The notes under the pieces were generated by a model. The model was not told where the DNA came from. It ran no database searches and saw only the letters and a list, made by a program, of their open reading frames with translations. DNA of 64,000 bases from Rhodococcus sp. SGAir0479 (lineage in GTDB: Bacteria > Actinomycetota > Actinomycetes > Mycobacteriales > Mycobacteriaceae), in contig NZ_CP039432.1 of the NCBI RefSeq assembly GCF_005484805.1, forward strand, positions 2,604,001 to 2,668,000, read 5' to 3'. Both the position numbers and the translations under genes were made by a program. Shown one piece after another: positions 7,645-47,398 of this stretch. Within the stretch, counting starts at the first letter, position 1, and each line of letters opens with the position of its first letter.

Positions 7645-7717
7645 TGGAGCTAAGGGGACTCGAACCCCTGACCCCCACACTGCCAGTGTGGTGCGCTACC
7701 AGCTGCGCCATAGCCCC
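7645..7717 (-). tRNA. tRNA-Ala, anticodon GGC
   Basis: The minus strand folds into a full cloverleaf of 73 bases. The acceptor stem GGGGCTA pairs with TAGCTCC with one G-U pair, the anticodon stem is CCACA/TGTGG around the loop CTGGCAG, and the T loop contains GTTCGAGTC. The anticodon GGC reads the GCC alanine codon. No CCA is encoded after the discriminator A. Confidence 0.97.
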
Positions 7718-15358: not shown

Positions 15359-15365
15359 TCTCCAG

Positions 15366-15734
15366 TGGAGCTGCCGGGAATCGAACCCGGGTCCTCCGCC
15401 GCTTTGCCAGGGCTTCTCCGTGTGCAGTTCGCTATGCCTCTACTTGGATCTCCCGGTCTCGCGAACAAGCCGTGATGACGATCCCAGTCGCTGTTGGTTG
15501 TCCCGCTCCACCCCGCGACCGAGTGGAACGGTAGAGCCCTCTAGCTGATGCCAGGATCCGGGTCGAGGGCGAACCCGGGCTGACAGACACGCAGTCGCTA
15601 CTTAGGCAGCGAGGGCGTAGTCGCGCTGATTGGAATCGGCGCTTATTGGTTTGCAGCGACGCTTACGGTGGTCTCTTGCCTGCACCGACACGCTTCCCCT
15701 GACTCAACGTACGCAGTCGAAACCGTTCAGCCCC
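15366..15734 (-). ncRNA. ssrA: Transfer-messenger RNA
   Basis: tmRNA rescues stalled ribosomes with SmpB. On the minus strand the 5' end GGGGCTG pairs with CAGCTCC at the 3' end to make the tRNA-like acceptor stem, and GGTTCGATTCC forms the T arm. The tag frame at 15602-15640 encodes ADSNQRDYALAA and then TAA; with the alanine from the charged molecule the added tag has 13 residues. The tag is very close to the mycobacterial one. No CCA is encoded. smpB lies about 2.3 kb away at 18075-18548. Confidence 0.96.
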
Positions 15735-33381: not shown

Positions 33382-33458
33382 TGGTAGCGGGGACAGGATT
33401 TGAACCTGCGACCTCTGGGTTATGAGCCCAGCGAGCTACCGAGCTGCTCCACCCCGCG
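33382..33458 (-). tRNA. Initiator tRNA-fMet, anticodon CAT
   Basis: The 77-base minus-strand cloverleaf has the anticodon CAT in loop CTCATAA. Two initiator features are visible: an unpaired C1-U72 at the top of the acceptor stem and three consecutive G-C pairs (GGG/CCC) at the bottom of the anticodon stem. The 3' CCA is encoded. Confidence 0.96.
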
Positions 33459-39523: not shown

Positions 39524-40960
39524 ATGAGCGATCTGCCCTTCGGCTTCTCCAACTCCGACGACGACCCGGACCGTAAGAAGGACTCGGGCGGGGAACAGGG
39601 CGGGTCGTCCGGTCAGCCGTTCGGCTTCGATCCGAGCGCGTTCGGCCTCGGCGGCGCGGGTGGACCCGCCGGTGGGTTCGATCCCGCGGCGCTCGGCCAG
39701 ATGCTCACCCAGTTCGGGCAGATGCTCAGCGGCATGGGCAGCGCGATGGGTCAGGGCGGCCAGGGCGGCCCCGTCAACTACGACGTCGCGAAGAACCTCG
39801 CGCGTCAGCAGATCGGATCGGTGACCCCCATCACGGAGGGCACCACGTCCGCGGTGACCGACGCCGCCCGCCTGGCCGAGCTGTGGCTCGACGGCGCGAC
39901 CACGCTGCCGGCCGGCGCGACGCGCACCGTGGCGTGGACGGCCGAGGACTGGCTCGACGGCACGCTCGACACGTGGAAGCGGCTGTGTGATCCCGTAGCC
40001 CAGCAGGTGTCCGGCATGTGGATCGAGGGTCTGCCCGAGGAGGCGCGGAACATGATCGGCCCCATGGCCGGCATGCTGACGCAGATGGGCGGGCTCACCT
40101 TCGGCTCCCAGCTGGGCCAGGCGCTCGGCCAGCTGTCGAAGGAGGTCCTCACCTCCACCGACATCGGGCTGCCGCTGGGACCGGCGGGGACCGCCGCGCT
40201 GCTGCCGACTGCCATCGAGGCGTTCAGCGAGGGCCTCGAGCAGCCGCACCGCGAGGTGCTCGTGTTCATCGCGGCCCGCGAGGCCGCCTACCAGCGCCTC
40301 TACAGCCACGTACCGTGGCTGCGGCAGCGTCTGCTCTCCACCGTCGAGGACTACGCACGCGGCATCAAGATGGACTTCTCGGCGATCGAGGAGGCCGCGC
40401 AGGGCCTGGACCCGTCGGCGCTCACCGACCCCTCGCAGATCGAGAAGATCCTGCAGCAGGGCGCGTTCGAGCCGCAGACCACGCCCGAGCAGAAGCAGGC
40501 GCTCGAGCGCCTCGAGACGATGCTGGCGCTCGTCGAGGGCTGGGTGGAGACGGTCGTGTCCGAGGCGCTCGGCGACCGCCTCCCGGGCGCCGCGGCGCTC
40601 ACCGAGACGCTGCGCCGTCGCCGCGCGACCGGCGGGCCCGCCGAGCAGACGTTCGCGACCCTGGTCGGGTTGGAGCTGCGTCCACGCAAGGTGCGCGAGG
40701 CCGCGCACCTGTGGCGTCGCCTCACCACGGACACCGGCGTCGACGCCCGGGACGGCGTCTGGGCGCACCCGGACCTGCTGCCGGACTCCTCCGACCTGGA
40801 CAACCCGGCCGCGTTCGTCGACCGGATCCTCGGGGGCGACTCCGGCACCTTCCACGACCCGATCGCGCAGCTCGAGCAGACCGAGGCACGCGAACGCGAG
40901 GAGAAGAACCGCGGGAGCGGCGAGACCGGCGAAGGCTCCCCCGACCGGTCCGACGACTAA
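39524..40960 (+). CDS. DUF2342 family protein, putative zinc metalloprotease without HExxH
   Basis: The 478-residue protein belongs to DUF2342, usually labelled zinc-dependent metalloprotease. The N-terminus is Gly/Phe-rich and disordered (about 1-60), followed by helical domains. The place of the expected HExxH helix is occupied by HREVLVFIAAREAAYQRLYSH, in which a His and several acidic residues remain but no HExxH is present, so catalytic activity is doubtful. WPRQRLLSTVEDYARGI and LGGDSGTFHDP near the end are conserved. The stop overlaps the opposite peptidase gene by four bases. Confidence 0.8.
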   Translation: MSDLPFGFSNSDDDPDRKKDSGGEQGGSSGQPFGFDPSAFGLGGAGGPAGGFDPAALGQMLTQFGQMLSGMGSAMGQGGQGGPVNYDVAKNLARQQIGSVTPITEGTTSAVTDAARLAELWLDGATTLPAGATRTVAWTAEDWLDGTLDTWKRLCDPVAQQVSGMWIEGLPEEARNMIGPMAGMLTQMGGLTFGSQLGQALGQLSKEVLTSTDIGLPLGPAGTAALLPTAIEAFSEGLEQPHREVLVFIAAREAAYQRLYSHVPWLRQRLLSTVEDYARGIKMDFSAIEEAAQGLDPSALTDPSQIEKILQQGAFEPQTTPEQKQALERLETMLALVEGWVETVVSEALGDRLPGAAALTETLRRRRATGGPAEQTFATLVGLELRPRKVREAAHLWRRLTTDTGVDARDGVWAHPDLLPDSSDLDNPAAFVDRILGGDSGTFHDPIAQLEQTEAREREEKNRGSGETGEGSPDRSDD

Positions 40961-41568
40961 CCGACCGAATCGTCGATGTCGTCGTCGGCGCCGTCCGTAC
41001 CGTCGGCGCCGTCGACGCCTACGAGATCCGGCTGCCGCGTGACCACCGAGTACGCCTCGAGGTAGCCGATCGCGCGTTCGGTCCGCGGATAGCGGCGCAC
41101 CTCCTCCCAGAAGCAGTCGTTGTGCCCGCCCGCGACGTACAGGTGCACCAGCTCGTGGACCAGCACGTAGTCGAGCACGTACGACGGCACCGTCCGCAGC
41201 AGTTCGCTGACGCGGATGGTGCCGTCCGTCGGTGTGCACGACGCCCACCGCGTCCGCATCGACGGCACCCACCGGATCGAGACGGGCTCCGCGGCACCGC
41301 GCAGCCAGCGCGCCGACAGCCGCGCCGCGCGTTCGGTGAGTTCGATGTCGCTGCGCTCGGCGCGGGCCGCGGCGCGGCGGTCCGCGCGGTCGAGCTTGCC
41401 GATCATCTCGGCCACCAGTTCGGCCTCCGCGGCCTTCGACATCCCGGTCGGCATCAGCACGATCACCTTGTCGCCCTCGCGGCGCGCGCTGACGGTGCGC
41501 CGCCGCCGCGCGCTACGGCGAATCTCCACCTCGGGCGTCCGGTGGTCGGAGGTTCCGCTGCCAGTCAC
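40957..41568 (-). CDS. YgjP-like metallopeptidase domain protein
   Basis: A 203-residue cytoplasmic protein with the zinc motif HELVHLYVAGGHNDCFWEEV, that is HExxH plus a third His, as in the YgjP-like (DUF45, M48-related) group. RWVPSMRTRWASCTPTDGTIRVS before it is also conserved. The C-terminal 25 residues are Asp/Gly-rich. The GTG at 41568 is preferred. It is convergent with DUF2342 and divergent from the E1-like gene, as in related mycolate genomes. Substrates are unknown. Confidence 0.85.
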   Translation of the reverse strand: MTGSGTSDHRTPEVEIRRSARRRRTVSARREGDKVIVLMPTGMSKAAEAELVAEMIGKLDRADRRAAARAERSDIELTERAARLSARWLRGAAEPVSIRWVPSMRTRWASCTPTDGTIRVSELLRTVPSYVLDYVLVHELVHLYVAGGHNDCFWEEVRRYPRTERAIGYLEAYSVVTRQPDLVGVDGADGTDGADDDIDDSVG

Positions 41569-41725
41569 GGGCCACCACGCTAGCGACCCGTCCCGACAAC
41601 CCCCACCGCGGATTTGCCGGCGACTTGCCATCACCACCGAAAGCGCAGGTCGGCGCGCTGCCGTCCTGTGGACAACCGCGTCGAACCGGCTCGCCGACTC
41701 ACCGGGGTCTGCCAGGGTCGACGGC

Positions 41726-42628
41726 ATGACCCCGGCTTCCCCGGCTTCCGCCCGCACCGTGCAGCGTCCCGCGCTCGATCCTCGGCGGCCCATCCTGACC
41801 CGCCCCAGCGGCCGCGTCCAGATCGGCTGGGACCCCGACACCGCGCTGCTACTCACCCCGCCCGACGGCGTGGAGGCGGCCGCGCTCGTGTCGGTGCTCG
41901 GACTCCTCGACGGCCGCACGTCGCGGCCCACCGTGGTGTGGCGCGCCGTCGACTACGGGATCACGCCCACCGACATGTCGGCGCTGCTCAGCGAGCTCGA
42001 CGAGGCCGGACTTCTCAGCCCGGCCTCTGCTGCGCCCGACCCGGCACCGGCCGTCCGGGTGCACGGTCGCGGCCCGCTGGCCGACGCGATCGCGGCCGGG
42101 CTCACCGGAGCCCCGATCCGCCTGACCCGGTCCACCCACTTCACGAGCGACACCGACGTGCGCCGGTGGAACTGCATGTGCGTCGTGCTCACCGACGACC
42201 TGGTCCCCGATCCCCGCCTGATCGACGCGCTGTTCACCGCGGGCATCGCCCACCTGCCGGTGCGGCTGCGCGACGGGAAGGGCATCGTCGGGCCGCTCGT
42301 ACTTCCCGGACGCACCAGTTGCCTGCGGTGTGCCGACCTGACGCGATGTGCCGCGGACGAGGAGTGGCCGCACGTCGCCGCGCAGCTGCTGGGGCGGGTG
42401 GGGCACGCGGGTCCGTCCACCGTCATGGCGACCGCCGCGGTCGCGCTCGGCCAGCTCGAGAAGGTGCTCTCCGGGGTGGCCCGTCCGGTGCCGGCGAGCC
42501 TGGACGCGACCCTCGAACTCGACCTGGACCGGCACCGTCTTGCACTCCGACCGTGGCCGCGCAACCCTCGGTGTGGATGCTCACGATCGCCGATTTTCTT
42601 GGACGAACCCCAGAATCTTCCGCCATGA
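41726..42628 (+). CDS. Orphan E1-like (ThiF/TOMM cyclodehydratase-type) protein
   Basis: The 300-residue cytoplasmic protein resembles the E1-like leader-binding proteins of azole-forming RiPP pathways. The N-terminal 100 residues form a winged-helix-like leader-binding region (ALVSVLGLLDGRTS, TDMSALLSELDEAGLLS), then a Rossmann-like part with VRVHGRGPLADAIA, and GPLVLPGRTSCLRCADLTRC with CxxC, matched by a C-terminal CGC, likely making a zinc site. No YcaO partner, precursor peptide or dehydrogenase is nearby, so it is an orphan. Synteny with mycobacterial Rv3196 suggests a conserved but unknown role. Confidence 0.72.
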   Translation: MTPASPASARTVQRPALDPRRPILTRPSGRVQIGWDPDTALLLTPPDGVEAAALVSVLGLLDGRTSRPTVVWRAVDYGITPTDMSALLSELDEAGLLSPASAAPDPAPAVRVHGRGPLADAIAAGLTGAPIRLTRSTHFTSDTDVRRWNCMCVVLTDDLVPDPRLIDALFTAGIAHLPVRLRDGKGIVGPLVLPGRTSCLRCADLTRCAADEEWPHVAAQLLGRVGHAGPSTVMATAAVALGQLEKVLSGVARPVPASLDATLELDLDRHRLALRPWPRNPRCGCSRSPIFLDEPQNLPP

Positions 42629-42635
42629 TGGTCTG

Positions 42636-43979
42636 GTGTCCGACATCCCCCGCAGAAGCAGCGCCCGCACCGCCAAGCTCGCGAGCATTCCGCTGGGCAT
42701 CGCCGGGCGCGCCGCGATGGGTTTCGGTAAGAAGCTGGCCGGCGGGGACCGTGACGCGATCGACGCGGAGCTGACGTCGCGGGCGGCCGAACAGCTGTTC
42801 ACCGTGCTCGGCGAGCTCAAGGGCGGCGCGATGAAGCTCGGCCAGGCCCTCAGCGTGATGGAGGCGGCGGTCCCCGAGGAGTTCAGCGAGCCCTACCGCG
42901 AGGCGCTCACCAAGCTCCAGGCCGAAGCGCCGCCGCTACCCGCCAAGCAGGTTCACCGGGTGCTCGACCAGCAGCTCGGCACCAAGTGGCGCGAGCGCTT
43001 CGCCCACTTCGACGACGTACCCACCGCCTCGGCCAGCATCGGGCAGGTGCACCGCGCGGTGTGGTCCGACGGCCGGGACGTGGCCGTCAAGGTGCAGTAC
43101 CCCGGCGCCGACGAGGCCTTGCGTGCGGACCTGCGGACCCTGTCGCGGTTCGCGGGACTGTTCGCCTCGGTGATGCCCGGCACCGACATCAAACCGGTCC
43201 TCGACGAGCTCAGCGCGCGGACCGAGGAGGAACTCGACTACCGCATCGAGGCGAACAACCAGCGGGCGTTCGCGAAGGTCTTCGACGGCGACGACCGGTT
43301 CGTGGTTCCCCGCGTGGTCGCGAGCGCCCCCAAGGTGGTCGTCACCGAGTGGATGTCGGCGACCCCGTTGTCGGCGATCATCGCGGACGGCACCGTCGAG
43401 CAGCGCAACACCGCCGGCGCGTTGCTCGCGGAGTTCCACTTCGTCTCCCCCGCACGGGTGGGCCTGCTGCACTGCGACCCGCACCCGGGCAACTTCATGC
43501 TGCACGACGACGGCCGCCTCGGGGTCATCGACTTCGGTGCGACGGCGCCGATGCCGAACGGACTGCCGCCGGTACTGGGCAGGATGGTCCGCCTCAACCT
43601 CGAGGAGCGGTTCGACGAGCTGACGGAGTTGTTGCGGGACAACGGTTTCGTGCTGCCCGGCCGTACCGTCACCGACGAGGAGATCGCGGACTACCTACGC
43701 CCGTTCACCGACCCGATCCGCACCGAGTCGTTCCACTTCACGCGGGCGTGGCTGCAGAAGGCCGCCGGTACGGCGACCGACTTCACGAGCACCAACTTCC
43801 GCACCGCCCGGGCGCTCAACCTCCCGCCCGAGTACGTGATGATCTTCCGGGTGCTGCTGGGCTCGGTGGGCATCTGCGCACAGCTCGACGCCTACGCGCC
43901 GTACATGGGCATCCTCACGCGGTGGCTGCCCGGTTTCGCCGACGCGGACGCCGACCTGGAAACCCTCGACGGGGCGTGA
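42636..43979 (+). CDS. ABC1/UbiB-family atypical kinase
   Basis: The 447-residue protein is an ADCK/UbiB-type kinase-like ATPase. The family KxGQ motif is in MKLGQALSVME, the Ala-rich nucleotide loop in TASASIGQVH, then VAVKVQYPG with the Lys, LLHCDPHPGNFML with catalytic Asp/Asn, and GVIDFGAT as the DFG equivalent. Family members act in isoprenoid quinone synthesis or lipid handling. The GTG at 42636 begins seven bases after the E1-like stop, so the genes are co-transcribed. Confidence 0.9.
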   Translation: MSDIPRRSSARTAKLASIPLGIAGRAAMGFGKKLAGGDRDAIDAELTSRAAEQLFTVLGELKGGAMKLGQALSVMEAAVPEEFSEPYREALTKLQAEAPPLPAKQVHRVLDQQLGTKWRERFAHFDDVPTASASIGQVHRAVWSDGRDVAVKVQYPGADEALRADLRTLSRFAGLFASVMPGTDIKPVLDELSARTEEELDYRIEANNQRAFAKVFDGDDRFVVPRVVASAPKVVVTEWMSATPLSAIIADGTVEQRNTAGALLAEFHFVSPARVGLLHCDPHPGNFMLHDDGRLGVIDFGATAPMPNGLPPVLGRMVRLNLEERFDELTELLRDNGFVLPGRTVTDEEIADYLRPFTDPIRTESFHFTRAWLQKAAGTATDFTSTNFRTARALNLPPEYVMIFRVLLGSVGICAQLDAYAPYMGILTRWLPGFADADADLETLDGA

Positions 43980-44027: not shown

Positions 44028-44366
44028 TCATGCGCACACCAGCGTTTTCTCCGGCGGCACGGGGTTCTTCCGTGGTCGCCCACGCGGCCGCTTACGGGCG
44101 ATGACGACCCCCTGTTCGATGATCTCGCCGCCCCAGACTCCCCACGGCTCCGCACGATCGAGCGCGGCGTCGAGGCACCGGCTGCGGATCGGGCAACCGC
44201 CGCACAGCGCCTTGGCTCGTTCGAGGTCGGCAGGAGTCTCGGCGAACCACAGGTCGGGGTTGTCTCCGGTCCGGCAGGGCAATTCCCGGCCTGCCGAGCG
44301 GACGACTCCCTGGCCGTTGGAAACGGTGCGGTTCGTGGTTCGTACTCGGCATGTCACGGTAGACAC
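44028..44366 (-). CDS. whiB7: Transcriptional regulator WhiB7
   Basis: WhiB7 is the iron-sulfur activator of intrinsic antibiotic resistance and acts with the primary sigma factor. The 112-residue product has the four cluster cysteines at 31, 55, 58 and 64, the GVWGGE turn at 76-81, and the AT-hook RGRPRK at 95-100 that separates WhiB7 from other WhiB proteins and binds AT-rich DNA beside the -35 element. The GTG at 44366 is chosen because AAGGAGA lies seven bases upstream; an open extension to 44396 exists. Expression is controlled by the leader at 44474-44806. Confidence 0.96.
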   Translation of the reverse strand: MSTVTCRVRTTNRTVSNGQGVVRSAGRELPCRTGDNPDLWFAETPADLERAKALCGGCPIRSRCLDAALDRAEPWGVWGGEIIEQGVVIARKRPRGRPRKNPVPPEKTLVCA

Positions 44367-44473
44367 GTCTTCTCCTTGTCGTTTCGAGTGATGCACTCGC
44401 GGCTCGTGCCGGCTTTCGGGGTTCGGGACGAACCGCGGTCGAGGGCCTGGAGCGAGAGAGCTCGAAACACGAA

Positions 44474-44503
44474 GGCCACGGTTCGCTGATGCGATCCGTG
44501 GCC
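44474..44503 (-). terminator. whiB7 leader attenuator terminator
   Basis: On the minus strand GGCCACGG (44496-44503) pairs with CCGTGGCC (44474-44481); inside, TCGC and GCGA add four pairs after one A-A mismatch, leaving an ATCA loop. A weakly T-rich tail CTTCGTGTTT follows. It sits between the upstream reading frame and whiB7 and would stop transcription early. The first arm can instead pair with 44552-44561. Confidence 0.85.
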
Positions 44504-44561
44504 TCGGGAGGACGGGCGGAGTATCTACCGAACGGTTCGGTGTCTGCTCCTGGCCACGGAT
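44494..44561 (-). promoter_or_regulatory. whiB7 leader antiterminator pairing
   Basis: The ten bases ATCCGTGGCC (minus strand, 44552-44561), inside the last codons of the upstream reading frame, are perfectly complementary to GGCCACGGAT (44494-44503), which is the first arm of the terminator. The two pairings exclude each other, giving a transcription attenuator tied to translation of the upstream frame. Confidence 0.78.
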
Positions 44562-44704
44562 GCGCGGGCTGCTGCTGCGCGCAGACGGATGGCGTGCGGT
44601 GCTGTCGCCGCGACGCTCGCGGCGGCCACTTCGGCCGCAGGGAGGTATGCGCGTGCGAACGCCGGCACCGATGCGCCTGCCGCAAATGCGTTCCAGTTGG
44701 TCAT
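44525..44704 (-). CDS. whiB7 upstream open reading frame (leader peptide), 59 residues
   Basis: An ATG at 44704 with GGAGG about eight bases upstream opens a frame of 59 codons ending in TAG, wholly inside the whiB7 leader. The peptide begins MTNWNAFAAG and is Ala- and Arg-rich with no domain. Its last codons overlap the antiterminator strand. In mycobacteria and Streptomyces the whiB7/wblC leader carries a translated upstream frame that senses ribosome-targeting antibiotics; this is the local version. The stop region also contains the inverted repeat ACCGAAC/GTTCGGT (44527-44541). Confidence 0.8.
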   Translation of the reverse strand: MTNWNAFAAGASVPAFARAYLPAAEVAAASVAATAPHAIRLRAAAARASVARSRHRTVR

Positions 44705-44813
44705 CGCTGCCACCTCCCTCTCACGTCGTCACGGGCCCGACCGAGGCTTCGGCCGAGGCATCCGTGGATCGGATATCGTCACCGCACACGAGTTTCCCCG
44801 TGGCGTGCAGTCC

Positions 44814-44851
44814 AGGGTATGGGACCCGAACAGACCGCACAAGTTATTTTT
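44814..44851 (-). promoter_or_regulatory. whiB7 autoregulated promoter
   Basis: On the minus strand TTGTGC (44837-44842) and TACCCT (44814-44819) are -35 and -10 elements with a 17-base spacer. Directly upstream of the -35 is AAAAATAAC (44843-44851), the AT-rich block that the WhiB7 AT-hook recognises. Transcription would start near 44807, giving a leader of about 440 bases. It lies between the uvrD2 stop and the upstream frame. Confidence 0.85.
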
Positions 44852-44875: not shown

Positions 44876-47038
44876 TCAGCTCGGGTCCAGCGCCGCGGCG
44901 GAGCGTTCACCGCGCACCAGCGCCAGCACGTCCGAGCCGTACTGCTCGAGCTTCTTGGCCCCGATTCCCGGGATCGCCACGAGGGCTCGCTCGTCCTGCG
45001 GCTGCTGTTCGGCTATCGCGGTCAGCGTGTTGTCACTGAACACCACATACGCCGGAACCTTCATCTCCCGGGCCCGGTCCCGGCGCCATTCCTTGAGCGT
45101 CTCGAGCAGCTCGATGTCGAGGTTGGACGGGCACGCCTCGCACCGGCCGAGCATGGTCGCCGTCGCGCCCATCAGTTGCTTACCGCAGACGCGGCACCGC
45201 GGCCGCGACCGCTTGGACTGCGCGGGGCGGGCGATCCGCGACGCCGGAGAATCGTCCGGGATGAGCCCGTTGAGGAATCGGGACCGGCGGCGGGACTTGC
45301 GTCCGCCCTCGTTGCGGGCCAGCGCCCACGACAGTGCCAGGTGCTCGCGGGCACGGGTGACCCCGACGTAGAGCAGGCGGCGCTCCTCCTCGATCCCGGC
45401 TTCGTCGTCGGGCGACTTGGAGTCGCCCAGCACGTGCGCGATGGGCAGCGTGCCCTCGTTGAGCCCGACGAGGAACACCGCGTCCCACTCCAGGCCCTTG
45501 GCGGCGTGCAGCGACGCCAGCGTGACGCCCTGGACCACCGGTGGATGCCGCGCCTCCGAGCGGGCGGCCAGTTCGCCGAGGAGGCCGCGCAGGGTCAGCT
45601 GCGCGTCCTGTGCCAGCAGTTCCTCGGTGAGCGCGACCAGCGCGGTGAGCGAGTTCCACCGTTCCCGGGCCTGCACACCGGCCGGCTCGACGTCGGTGAG
45701 CCCCAACGGGACCAGCACCGCGCGCACGAGCGTCACCAGTGCCTCCCCGGTGTCGGCGCCGTCCGGCAGATCGTCCCGCCCGGCGACCTGCCGCAGTGCG
45801 GTGATCGCCTGGCGCACCTCCTGGCGCTGGAAGAAGCCCTCACCGCCGCGCACCTGGTACGGGATGCCCGCCTCGGTGAGCGCCTGCTCGTGGACCTCGG
45901 ACTGCGCGTTGATGCGGTAGAGCACGGCGATCTCGGCGGGCTCGACCCCGCGGTCGATGAGCTTGGCGATCTGCTTCGCGACGGCCGCGGCCTCGGCCGG
46001 CTCGTCGTCGTACTCGGCGAACGTCGGCTCCGGGCCGGGGGCGCGCTGACCGATCAACTGCAGCCGGGTGCCCGCGATGCGCCCGCGCGCCGCGCCGATC
46101 ACCCGGTTCGCCAGCGACACCACCTCGGGCGTCGACCGATAGTCCCGCTCGAGCCGGACGACGGTGGCGTCCGGGAAGCGCCGCGAGAAGTCCAGCAGGA
46201 ACTTCGGGGTGGCCCCGGTGAACGAATAGATCGTCTGGTTGGCGTCGCCGACCACCGTCAGGTCGTCGCGCTCGCCCAGCCACGCGTCGAGTACGCGCTG
46301 CTGCAGCGGCGTGACGTCCTGGTACTCGTCGACCACGAAGCAGCGGTAGCGGTCCCGGAACTCCTCGGCGACGGCGGCGTTGTCCTCGAGCGCGATCGCG
46401 GTGTGCAGCAGCAGGTCGTCGAAGTCCAGCAGGATGCCGTCCGGGTCCCGCGTCTTGAGGGCCTCGTACCCGGAGTAGACGGACGCCACCTGCGCGGCGT
46501 CGGCCGGAACGTCGCGACGGGCCCGCGCGGCGGCAGCCGGGTAGTCCTCGGGCGCGACGAGCGAGCCCTTGGCCCATTCGATCTCGCTCGCGAGGTCACG
46601 GATGCTCTCGGTGCTGGTCGACAGCCCCACCCGGCTCGCAGCCTGCCCGACGAGCGCGAACTTGCGGTCCAGCAGGCGCCAGTCGGTGTCGCCGATGACC
46701 TGCGGCCAGAAGTACTTGAGCTGTCGCAGCGCCGCGGCGTGGAACGTGCGGGCCTGCACCTGCGGGCCCCCGCCACCGATGCCGAGACCGCGCAGCCGCC
46801 CGCGCATCTCGCCCGCCGCGCGCGCGGTGAACGTCACCGCCAGCACCTGGCCGGCCGACACGTGCCCGGCCGCGACCAGGTGCGCGATCCGGCGCGTGAT
46901 GGTGCGGGTCTTGCCGGTACCGGCACCGGCGAGCACGCACACCGGGCCGCGGGGAGCGAGCACGGCGGCGGACTGCTGCGGATCCAGTCCCTCCTCGAGC
47001 CTGGTCGCTACGTTCTCCGGGCTGGCATCCGCTGACAT
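44876..47038 (-). CDS. uvrD2: UvrD/PcrA-type DNA helicase UvrD2
   Basis: The 720-residue superfamily 1A 3'-5' DNA helicase acts in DNA repair. The P-loop AGAGTGKT is at 37-44, motif II is VDEYQDV, and [20 protein letters not shown] and the [14 protein letters not shown] motif VI are all present. After the motor come a tetracysteine cluster (CRVC and CEAC, separated by 14 residues) and a C-terminal HRDC domain, the hallmark of mycobacterial UvrD2. The ATG at 47038 is preferred. It is divergent from mrx1 and lies upstream of the whiB7 promoter. Confidence 0.94.
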
Positions 47039-47146
47039 GACGTCCATCCTCTCAGGGCGCACCGACAGGTGCCGTCCGCACCCGGGACCGGTGTGACGTG
47101 CGCCCACGCGGGAACAGAGGAGACCGACCGTGGTGTTATAGGCGCC

Positions 47147-47398
47147 GTGACTACCCAAGCTCCTGCTCTGACCATGTACTCGACCACGTGGTGCGGCTAC
47201 TGCCGTCGCCTCAAGAAGCAGCTCGACGAGAACGGCATCTCGTACGTCGAGATCGACATCGAGGACGATCCCGCGGCGGCGCGGTTCGTCGGCAGCGTCA
47301 ACGGCGGCAACCACGTGGTGCCCACCGTCAAGTACGCGGACGGCAGCACCGCCACCAACCCGTCACTGGCGCAGGTCAAGCAGGCGCTGGGCCTCTAG
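47147..47398 (+). CDS. mrx1: Mycoredoxin (glutaredoxin-like)
   Basis: The 83-residue thiol oxidoreductase uses mycothiol to reduce mixed disulfides. The active site is CGYC (Cys16, Cys19) in [11 protein letters not shown], followed by the cis-Pro in HVVPTV and the mycothiol-binding NGG region. The position beside uvrD2 agrees with M. tuberculosis. The GTG at 47147 has no obvious ribosome binding site and a possible -10 (GTTATA, 47135-47140) lies seven bases upstream, so the message may be leaderless. Confidence 0.9.

Follow-up and report, generated by a model that had tools for sequence, protein, structure and literature searches.

We found that the leader of whiB7 in the Rhodococcus window (the whole stretch of DNA analyzed, 64,000 nucleotides) is very probably a transcription attenuator of the ribosome-mediated kind known from whiB7/wblC, in which ribosomes on an upstream frame (uORF) would decide between an antiterminator and an intrinsic terminator. 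The first-pass annotation had proposed such a uORF-controlled choice, and this proposal was supported by its match to the published mechanism, by two-sided base changes in the pairing arms and by the keeping of the uORF reading frame across relatives. Since the mechanism is already published for whiB7/wblC, what is new here is the Rhodococcus instance, which is well supported by sequence, and the attenuator is now placed in the Rhodococcus group and across the family with comparative evidence for each helix.

As summarized in Table 1, the leader spans about 440 nt of the minus strand between the UvrD/HRDC gene and whiB7, and its elements follow one another (5′ to 3′) as AT-rich box, −35, −10, 5′ hairpin, SD, uORF including arm B, P3, C, D, U-rich tail and whiB7. 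The product of the last of these matched the Pfam Whib domain with 55.3 bits against a cut-off of 23.6 (in a scan begun at 44396), and an NCBIfam scan of the same product gave no match. The gene at 44028-44366 is assigned to the WhiB family by Pfam, while we take its product to be of the WhiB7 subtype from two markers, namely the RGRPRK tail and the UvrD/HRDC neighbor. Convergent with whiB7 lies a gene on the plus strand (42348-43979) for an ABC1-type kinase resembling the macrolide-binding ATPase MABP-1; its product scored 638 bits with the NCBIfam model NF050082 (MABP-1), under the cut-off of 800. Rfam covariance models at gathering score gave no match in the whiB7 leader, and the window yielded only a tmRNA gene at 15363-15734 (minus strand) and two tRNAs at 7645-7717 and 33385-33458.

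Table 1. Features of the whiB7 locus, listed in the direction of transcription (coordinates are positions in the window)
Feature	Position	Strand	Remarks
Helicase gene	44876-47314	-	UvrD-type with HRDC domain (Pfam); upstream neighbor of whiB7
AT-rich WhiB7-type box	44843-44851	-	AAAAATAAC; directly 5′ of the -35 element
Promoter (predicted)	44814-44842	-	-35 TTGTGC 44842-44837, spacer 17 nt, -10 TACCCT 44819-44814; from sequence and conservation
P1	44784-44808	-	Local hairpin at predicted transcript 5′ end (CACG...CGTG); kept in genus
uORF SD	44713-44718	-	GGGAGG; GGAGGTG 44717-44711; in 14/14 genus leaders
uORF	44525-44704	-	ATG, 59 codons + TAG; 22/59 Ala
Arm B	44552-44561	-	ATCCGTGGCC; uORF codons 48-51; perfect complement of arm C
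P3	44527-44541	-	ACCGAA-CCG-TTCGGT; ends in first base of uORF stop codon
Arm C	44494-44503	-	GGCCACGGAT; common to antiterminator and terminator
Terminator stem (predicted)	44474-44503	-	C:D plus inner 4 bp TCGC/GCGA
Arm D	44474-44481	-	CCGTGGCC; 3′ arm of intrinsic terminator
Weak U-rich tail	44465-44473	-	TTCGTGTTT; 3′ end of terminator
whiB7	44028-44366	-	112 aa from GTG 44366 (start most likely); SD AAGGAG 44377-44372; C-terminal RGRPRK

The 59-codon upstream frame with a strong ribosome binding site, as described from the sequence at first pass, was confirmed. We compared it in a genus set of 14 leaders from 14 genomes, own genome included, and this revealed that all 56 gap runs within the uORF were multiples of 3, and that in codons 1 to 47 third positions were the most variable (30 of 43, versus 23 first and 18 second positions). 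These data indicated that the uORF is a conserved frame. In codons 48 to 60, where the RNA arms lie, third positions showed no excess, with 5 of 13 variable versus 6 and 5 at the first and second positions. The leader therefore holds, between promoter and terminator, an SD-led uORF whose frame is kept and which is presumably translated.

The two pairings in which arm C takes part, B:C (antiterminator) and C:D (terminator), are mutually exclusive. The placing of B in the last uORF codons, perfectly complementary to C, was borne out, "last" meaning here codons 48-51 of 59, eight before the stop; C likewise proved to be the first arm of an 8+4 bp terminator hairpin upstream of whiB7. The structure predicted between uORF and whiB7 is an intrinsic terminator with a weak U-tract. 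The leader as a whole (44810-44465) folded better than its shuffles, with a z score of −3.40 and none of 100 shuffles as good. When folded without D, the best structure contained B:C (−36.3 kcal/mol), and with B masked it contained C:D (−32.6 kcal/mol), while with the whole stretch from B to D included the terminator won (−44.5 kcal/mol). Since the terminator is favored with all arms present, antitermination would have to be kinetic, B being bare as C emerges.

From this anatomy we infer the following course of events. RNA polymerase would start near 44808, the predicted transcription start on the minus strand, and a ribosome would load on the uORF. If translation were slowed or stalled in roughly the first 43 codons, by a ribosome inhibitor or by a lack of charged alanyl-tRNA, B would stay bare and could pair with C on its exit from the polymerase, before D, whereupon the terminator would be blocked and whiB7 transcribed; WhiB7 would then activate its own promoter. 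A ribosome keeping pace would instead occupy B during the synthesis of C and D, C:D would form, and transcription would stop near 44465-44473. Because any stall in roughly the first 43 codons would leave B bare, the long uORF would serve as a broad sensor. A ribosome covers about 15 nt to either side, and one over codons 44 to 52 or so would cover B, whereas one at the stop codon would cover P3 and neither B nor C; close coupling thus seems needed, and this is the least certain step. P3 may keep the polymerase waiting for the ribosome, and would also bring B and C together.

We then determined how far these elements are kept. C, the inner stem and D were invariant in 14/14 genus leaders, and arm B kept ATCCGTG throughout; 11 leaders had the complete ATCCGTGGCC, the GGCC end of B being altered in three (L009, L010 and L012). 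With the stem invariant, no covariation was visible within the genus, and the family level was needed. There, WhiB7 was matched at E 1e-20 in 102 of 121 genomes; the 19 genomes without a match at this threshold were noted in genera g3, g4, g5 and g13. The leaders examined numbered 109 (the 14 of the genus and 95 others from 94 genomes), and the exact core hairpin was present in 99. The remaining 10, without an exact CC[ACG]CGG hairpin (L104, L110, L113, L123, L130, L142, L165, L169, L170 and L171), were excluded from later counts, and at least four of them (L104, L110, L113 and L171) carried a near version of it.

In each leader, the uORF was the ORF with the best SD and start codon among those stopping at most 80 nt from C, so that an ORF in 99/99 says little, and SD and B placement say more. 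Of the 99 core-hairpin leaders, 98 had an ORF that carries an SD-like motif (at least 4 bases) and stops 17-55 nt before the C core (the ORF of L101 lacked an SD and stopped 79 nt from C), and CCGT lay within the ORF tail in 97. The stricter [TC]CCGT occurred in 94/99, and 89 of these 94 shared a single reading frame for it; the B arms placed by this pattern are partly wrong, 5/94 being out of frame and six lying 112-311 nt from C, and they were kept in the counts.

For the covariation analysis, 86 of the 99 leaders, those with [TC]CCGT 38-75 nt from C, were reduced to 54 by near-copy removal and a maximum of 4 per genus. Selection was on the cores, and core invariance and the Ser/Pro-Val reading are hence there by construction, while columns 22 and 101 were unselected. 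On the alignment of all 54 rows (A1), RNAalifold saw just the terminator core (7 terminator pairs, with a covariation term of almost nil), and one group of rows had been put out of register by MAFFT; A1 was therefore split by eye on the C arm into A2 (36 rows) and A3 (15 rows), with L115, L116 and L126 in neither. In A2, the B:C columns 22:101 held GC in 23 rows, AU in 9, CG in 1 and GU in 1, and were unpaired in 2 (n = 36). Antiterminator and P3 together gave 29 two-sided changed cells in A2 versus 9.7 in shuffles and a covariation score of 0.177 versus 0.113, neither reached in any of 500 shuffles, and sliding the register lowered the paired cells from 86% to 27-44%. The A2 number of pairs changed on both sides was matched by 148/500 shuffles and that of additional pair types by 27/500, and on these two measures a slide of −3 beat the true register (8 and 21 versus 6 and 18); the B:C pairs 33:94 and 34:93 were unpaired in 20 and 10 A2 rows.

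As for the terminator, the inner C:D pair in A1 was CG in 24 rows, UA in 24, UG in 2 and other in 4 (n = 54), with a score reached by 0/500 shuffles. The six terminator core pairs never vary in A1 and are hence uninformative, the whole inner stem was 64% paired, and the A1 numbers of pairs changed on both sides and of additional pair types were reached by 136 and 216 of 500 shuffles. The A3 rows, which are in another register, were 79% paired with little covariation, their score being matched by 37/500 shuffles and beaten at slides −1 and −3. Related leaders are non-independent, which makes all these covariation counts overstate the number of events. In an alignment-free swap test on the 99 leaders, pairing of each uORF region with its own C averaged −20.04 kcal/mol versus −18.49 kcal/mol (sd 0.35) when permuted, and 0/5000 permutations were as good; single leaders overlap in this test, the own C being better than the swapped mean in 80/99 and not in 19/99. 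The first-pass annotation had set compensatory change of the arms across relatives as a test of its scheme, and at the family level two-sided changes were indeed seen in both B:C and C:D. These results support an antiterminator in which uORF sequence pairs with the 5′ arm of the terminator, weakly so in A3.

Other explanations of the same features were weighed against this one. One is that the three similar arms are a chance product of GC-rich sequence. In dinucleotide shuffles of the 420-nt leader, just 7/20000 gave a B-C-D set in which each exact pairing was at least 9 and the two summed to at least 19 (looser sets of at least 9 arose in 18 and of at least 8 in 120 of the same shuffles). When the window was taken as 1186 overlapping pieces of 420 nt, sets of at least 9 were present in 3, all from one place near 40951-41580, and sets of at least 8 in 29, counting these 3. 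The arms alone are thus a lead and not proof; they stand out, but in 64 kb of GC-rich DNA they do not settle the matter, and it is position, conservation and covariation that carry the case. As the arms are conserved upstream of whiB7 in many genera of the family and beyond, the probability of a chance origin appears negligible.

It could also be proposed that the uORF tail is kept for its peptide, an arrest peptide, so that stalling at its motif, and not B:C pairing, controls whiB7. The [TC]CCGT core is held in one frame in 89/94 leaders, where it reads Ser-Val in 60 or Pro-Val in 29 (the pattern permits only these two), and the basic C-terminus of the uORF is similar between genera g1 and g20. 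However, the residue before Val switches between Ser and Pro while the RNA core stays, B bases change together with C, and the third positions of codons 48-60 are no freer than the others, unlike those of codons 1-47; a ribosome stalled at the motif would moreover be expected to cover B and to favor the terminator. We regard an arrest peptide as very unlikely. Equally small, in our estimate, is the chance that the hairpin only terminates an independent short RNA (a small RNA or the mRNA of a uORF protein), with read-through set by promoter strength through WhiB7 instead of the ribosome. Such a transcript would agree with the thermodynamic preference for the terminator on the whole B-D stretch and with the WhiB7-type promoter pattern, but it accounts neither for B changing with C nor for the fact that in 97/99 core-hairpin leaders an SD-led ORF has B in its tail.

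Within the ribosome-mediated attenuator, two further features were characterized. One is P3, in which 5 of 6 pairs had two-sided changes and 79.6% of cells were paired in the 36 A2 leaders. The B-to-C segment that contains it had a mean z of −2.08 relative to shuffles over 93 leaders, below −1 in 76 and below −2 in 43 (a few of these segments are too long, owing to a misplaced B), and that of our own leader only −0.9. The trp leader has a pause hairpin, and by analogy the location of P3 at the stop codon suggests a part in ribosome-polymerase timing.

The other feature is the codon make-up of the uORF. Alanine contributes 37% of its residues (22/59), versus 14% and 11% in two neighbor genes, and 6/59 and 3/59 when the same stretch is read in either of its other frames. 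GCA makes up 10 of the 22 Ala codons versus 13/309 in six ORFs of the window taken as genes (Fisher p = 1.2e-7), an excess that was also evident against A-ending codons at the other residues of the uORF (4/37 by hand count; p = 0.004). In the 14 genus uORFs, GCA accounted for 200 of 347 Ala codons. Over the 99 leaders the mean Ala share was 26%, exceeding 20% in 73, and GCA use ranged from 0.04 to 0.67 by genus. By Ala count, the leader is rich in the codons of the amino acid that it would sense, as in trp-type systems, and alanine sensing is putative. We can only tentatively suggest, and with more doubt than confidence, that these are extra working parts, with P3, located at the uORF stop codon in most family leaders, timing the ribosome against RNA polymerase and the genus uORF acting as an alanine sensor tuned to GCA, which is rare locally. 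If true, the switch would read the charging of one alanine tRNA plus drug-stalled ribosomes.

The promoter elements form a WhiB7-type pattern, autoregulation being putative, and an A/T run followed by such −35 and −10 elements occurred in 97/99 family leaders; the AT-rich box AAAAATAAC is presumably the WhiB7 binding site. Some other genera have P1-like hairpins (CACGGG/CCCGTG) at about this position (by eye, uncounted). The minimum free energy (MFE) fold of the leader contains a long-range pairing, and an arm A that pairs with B as an anti-antiterminator was considered, with GCCACGG (44804-44798) near the 5′ end or ATCCACGGAT downstream as candidates. Arm A was dropped, since the ATCCACGGAT copy is unconserved in the genus and the 5′ copy fits a local hairpin seen by eye also in some other genera.

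A uORF-mediated attenuator of whiB7/wblC was reportedly described by Lee, Lee and Roe (2022, Mol Microbiol 117:179). In a listing-level literature search, the coverage of which did not extend to that paper, no prior account of a Rhodococcus whiB7 leader was found, in keeping with the earlier remark that the exact pairing in this organism appeared undescribed. Poulton (2024) is said to have described an alanine-starvation response through whiB7 in mycobacteria; the Rhodococcus uORF would likewise be expected to sense a lack of alanine, and GCA codon enrichment is noted here. Those parts of the literature that were covered link whiB7 to alanine starvation (PMC13236596, PMC10727445, PMC13370626) and describe for whiB7/wblC a uORF-controlled transcription attenuator with terminator and antiterminator (PMC10727445, PMC9618640, PMC11550727). 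As far as the covered parts go, that attenuator shares with ours the uORF, the intrinsic terminator, an antiterminator sharing uORF and terminator sequence, and the WhiB7 gene; it responds to ribosome inhibitors, and a like response would be expected here from the sequence. The difference lies in the organism, and in the exact arms, P3 and codon make-up, which here were read and compared across relatives.

The whiB7 5′ UTRs of M. marinum and M. bovis resemble the Rhodococcus leader in their length, SD-led uORF and conserved stem-loop, which there has a T-rich tail at which transcription fades (Dinan 2014, PMC4128351, in the parts covered); an antiterminator pairing is given here, and none in those parts of PMC4128351. 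The trp/ilv-type leader-peptide attenuators, represented by ilvB1 of M. tuberculosis in the part of PMC13236596 covered, likewise combine a translated leader with a mutually exclusive terminator and anti-terminator, whereas the uORF described here is much longer, holds the switching arm inside and is without a run of few regulatory codons. An arm-1 anti-antiterminator of the trp/ilv type was not apparent in our leader.

Finally, a covariance model was built from the 36 A2 leaders, and it now covers a leader type where Rfam had nothing in the window. A search of the own genome with this model returned one strong match, the whiB7 leader (E = 4.6e-25), all others having E-values of 0.003 or worse. 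The third match (C1:4106485-4106582, L206; E = 0.007) was considered as a second attenuator and rejected, being a plain lone hairpin downstream of another ORF; this hairpin resembles the whiB7 terminator (GAGGCCACGGACTCGAAAGTCCGTGGCCTC). The own genome also has a second whiB7-like gene (G000:C1:160077-160292; L207 1542-1820), and a second match was found in 8/14 genus genomes. The core hairpin was absent within 260 nt upstream of all eight of these second loci (L015-L022), which on this ground look unattenuated.

In the order, 66 of 101 genomes matched the model at E 0.01, 12 of them in the own family and 54 outside it. Out-of-family matches were inspected in 20 of the 54 genomes, mainly those with the lowest E-values (5.6e-6 to 7.2e-4), and 19 of the 20 adjoined a WhiB7-like gene. 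In these leaders (L186-L203 and L205) the best B-C duplex extends to the 5′ flank of the terminator, often as a CCTCGAGG block, and the antiterminator outside the family thus seems to be longer, in a layout unlike that of the own family.
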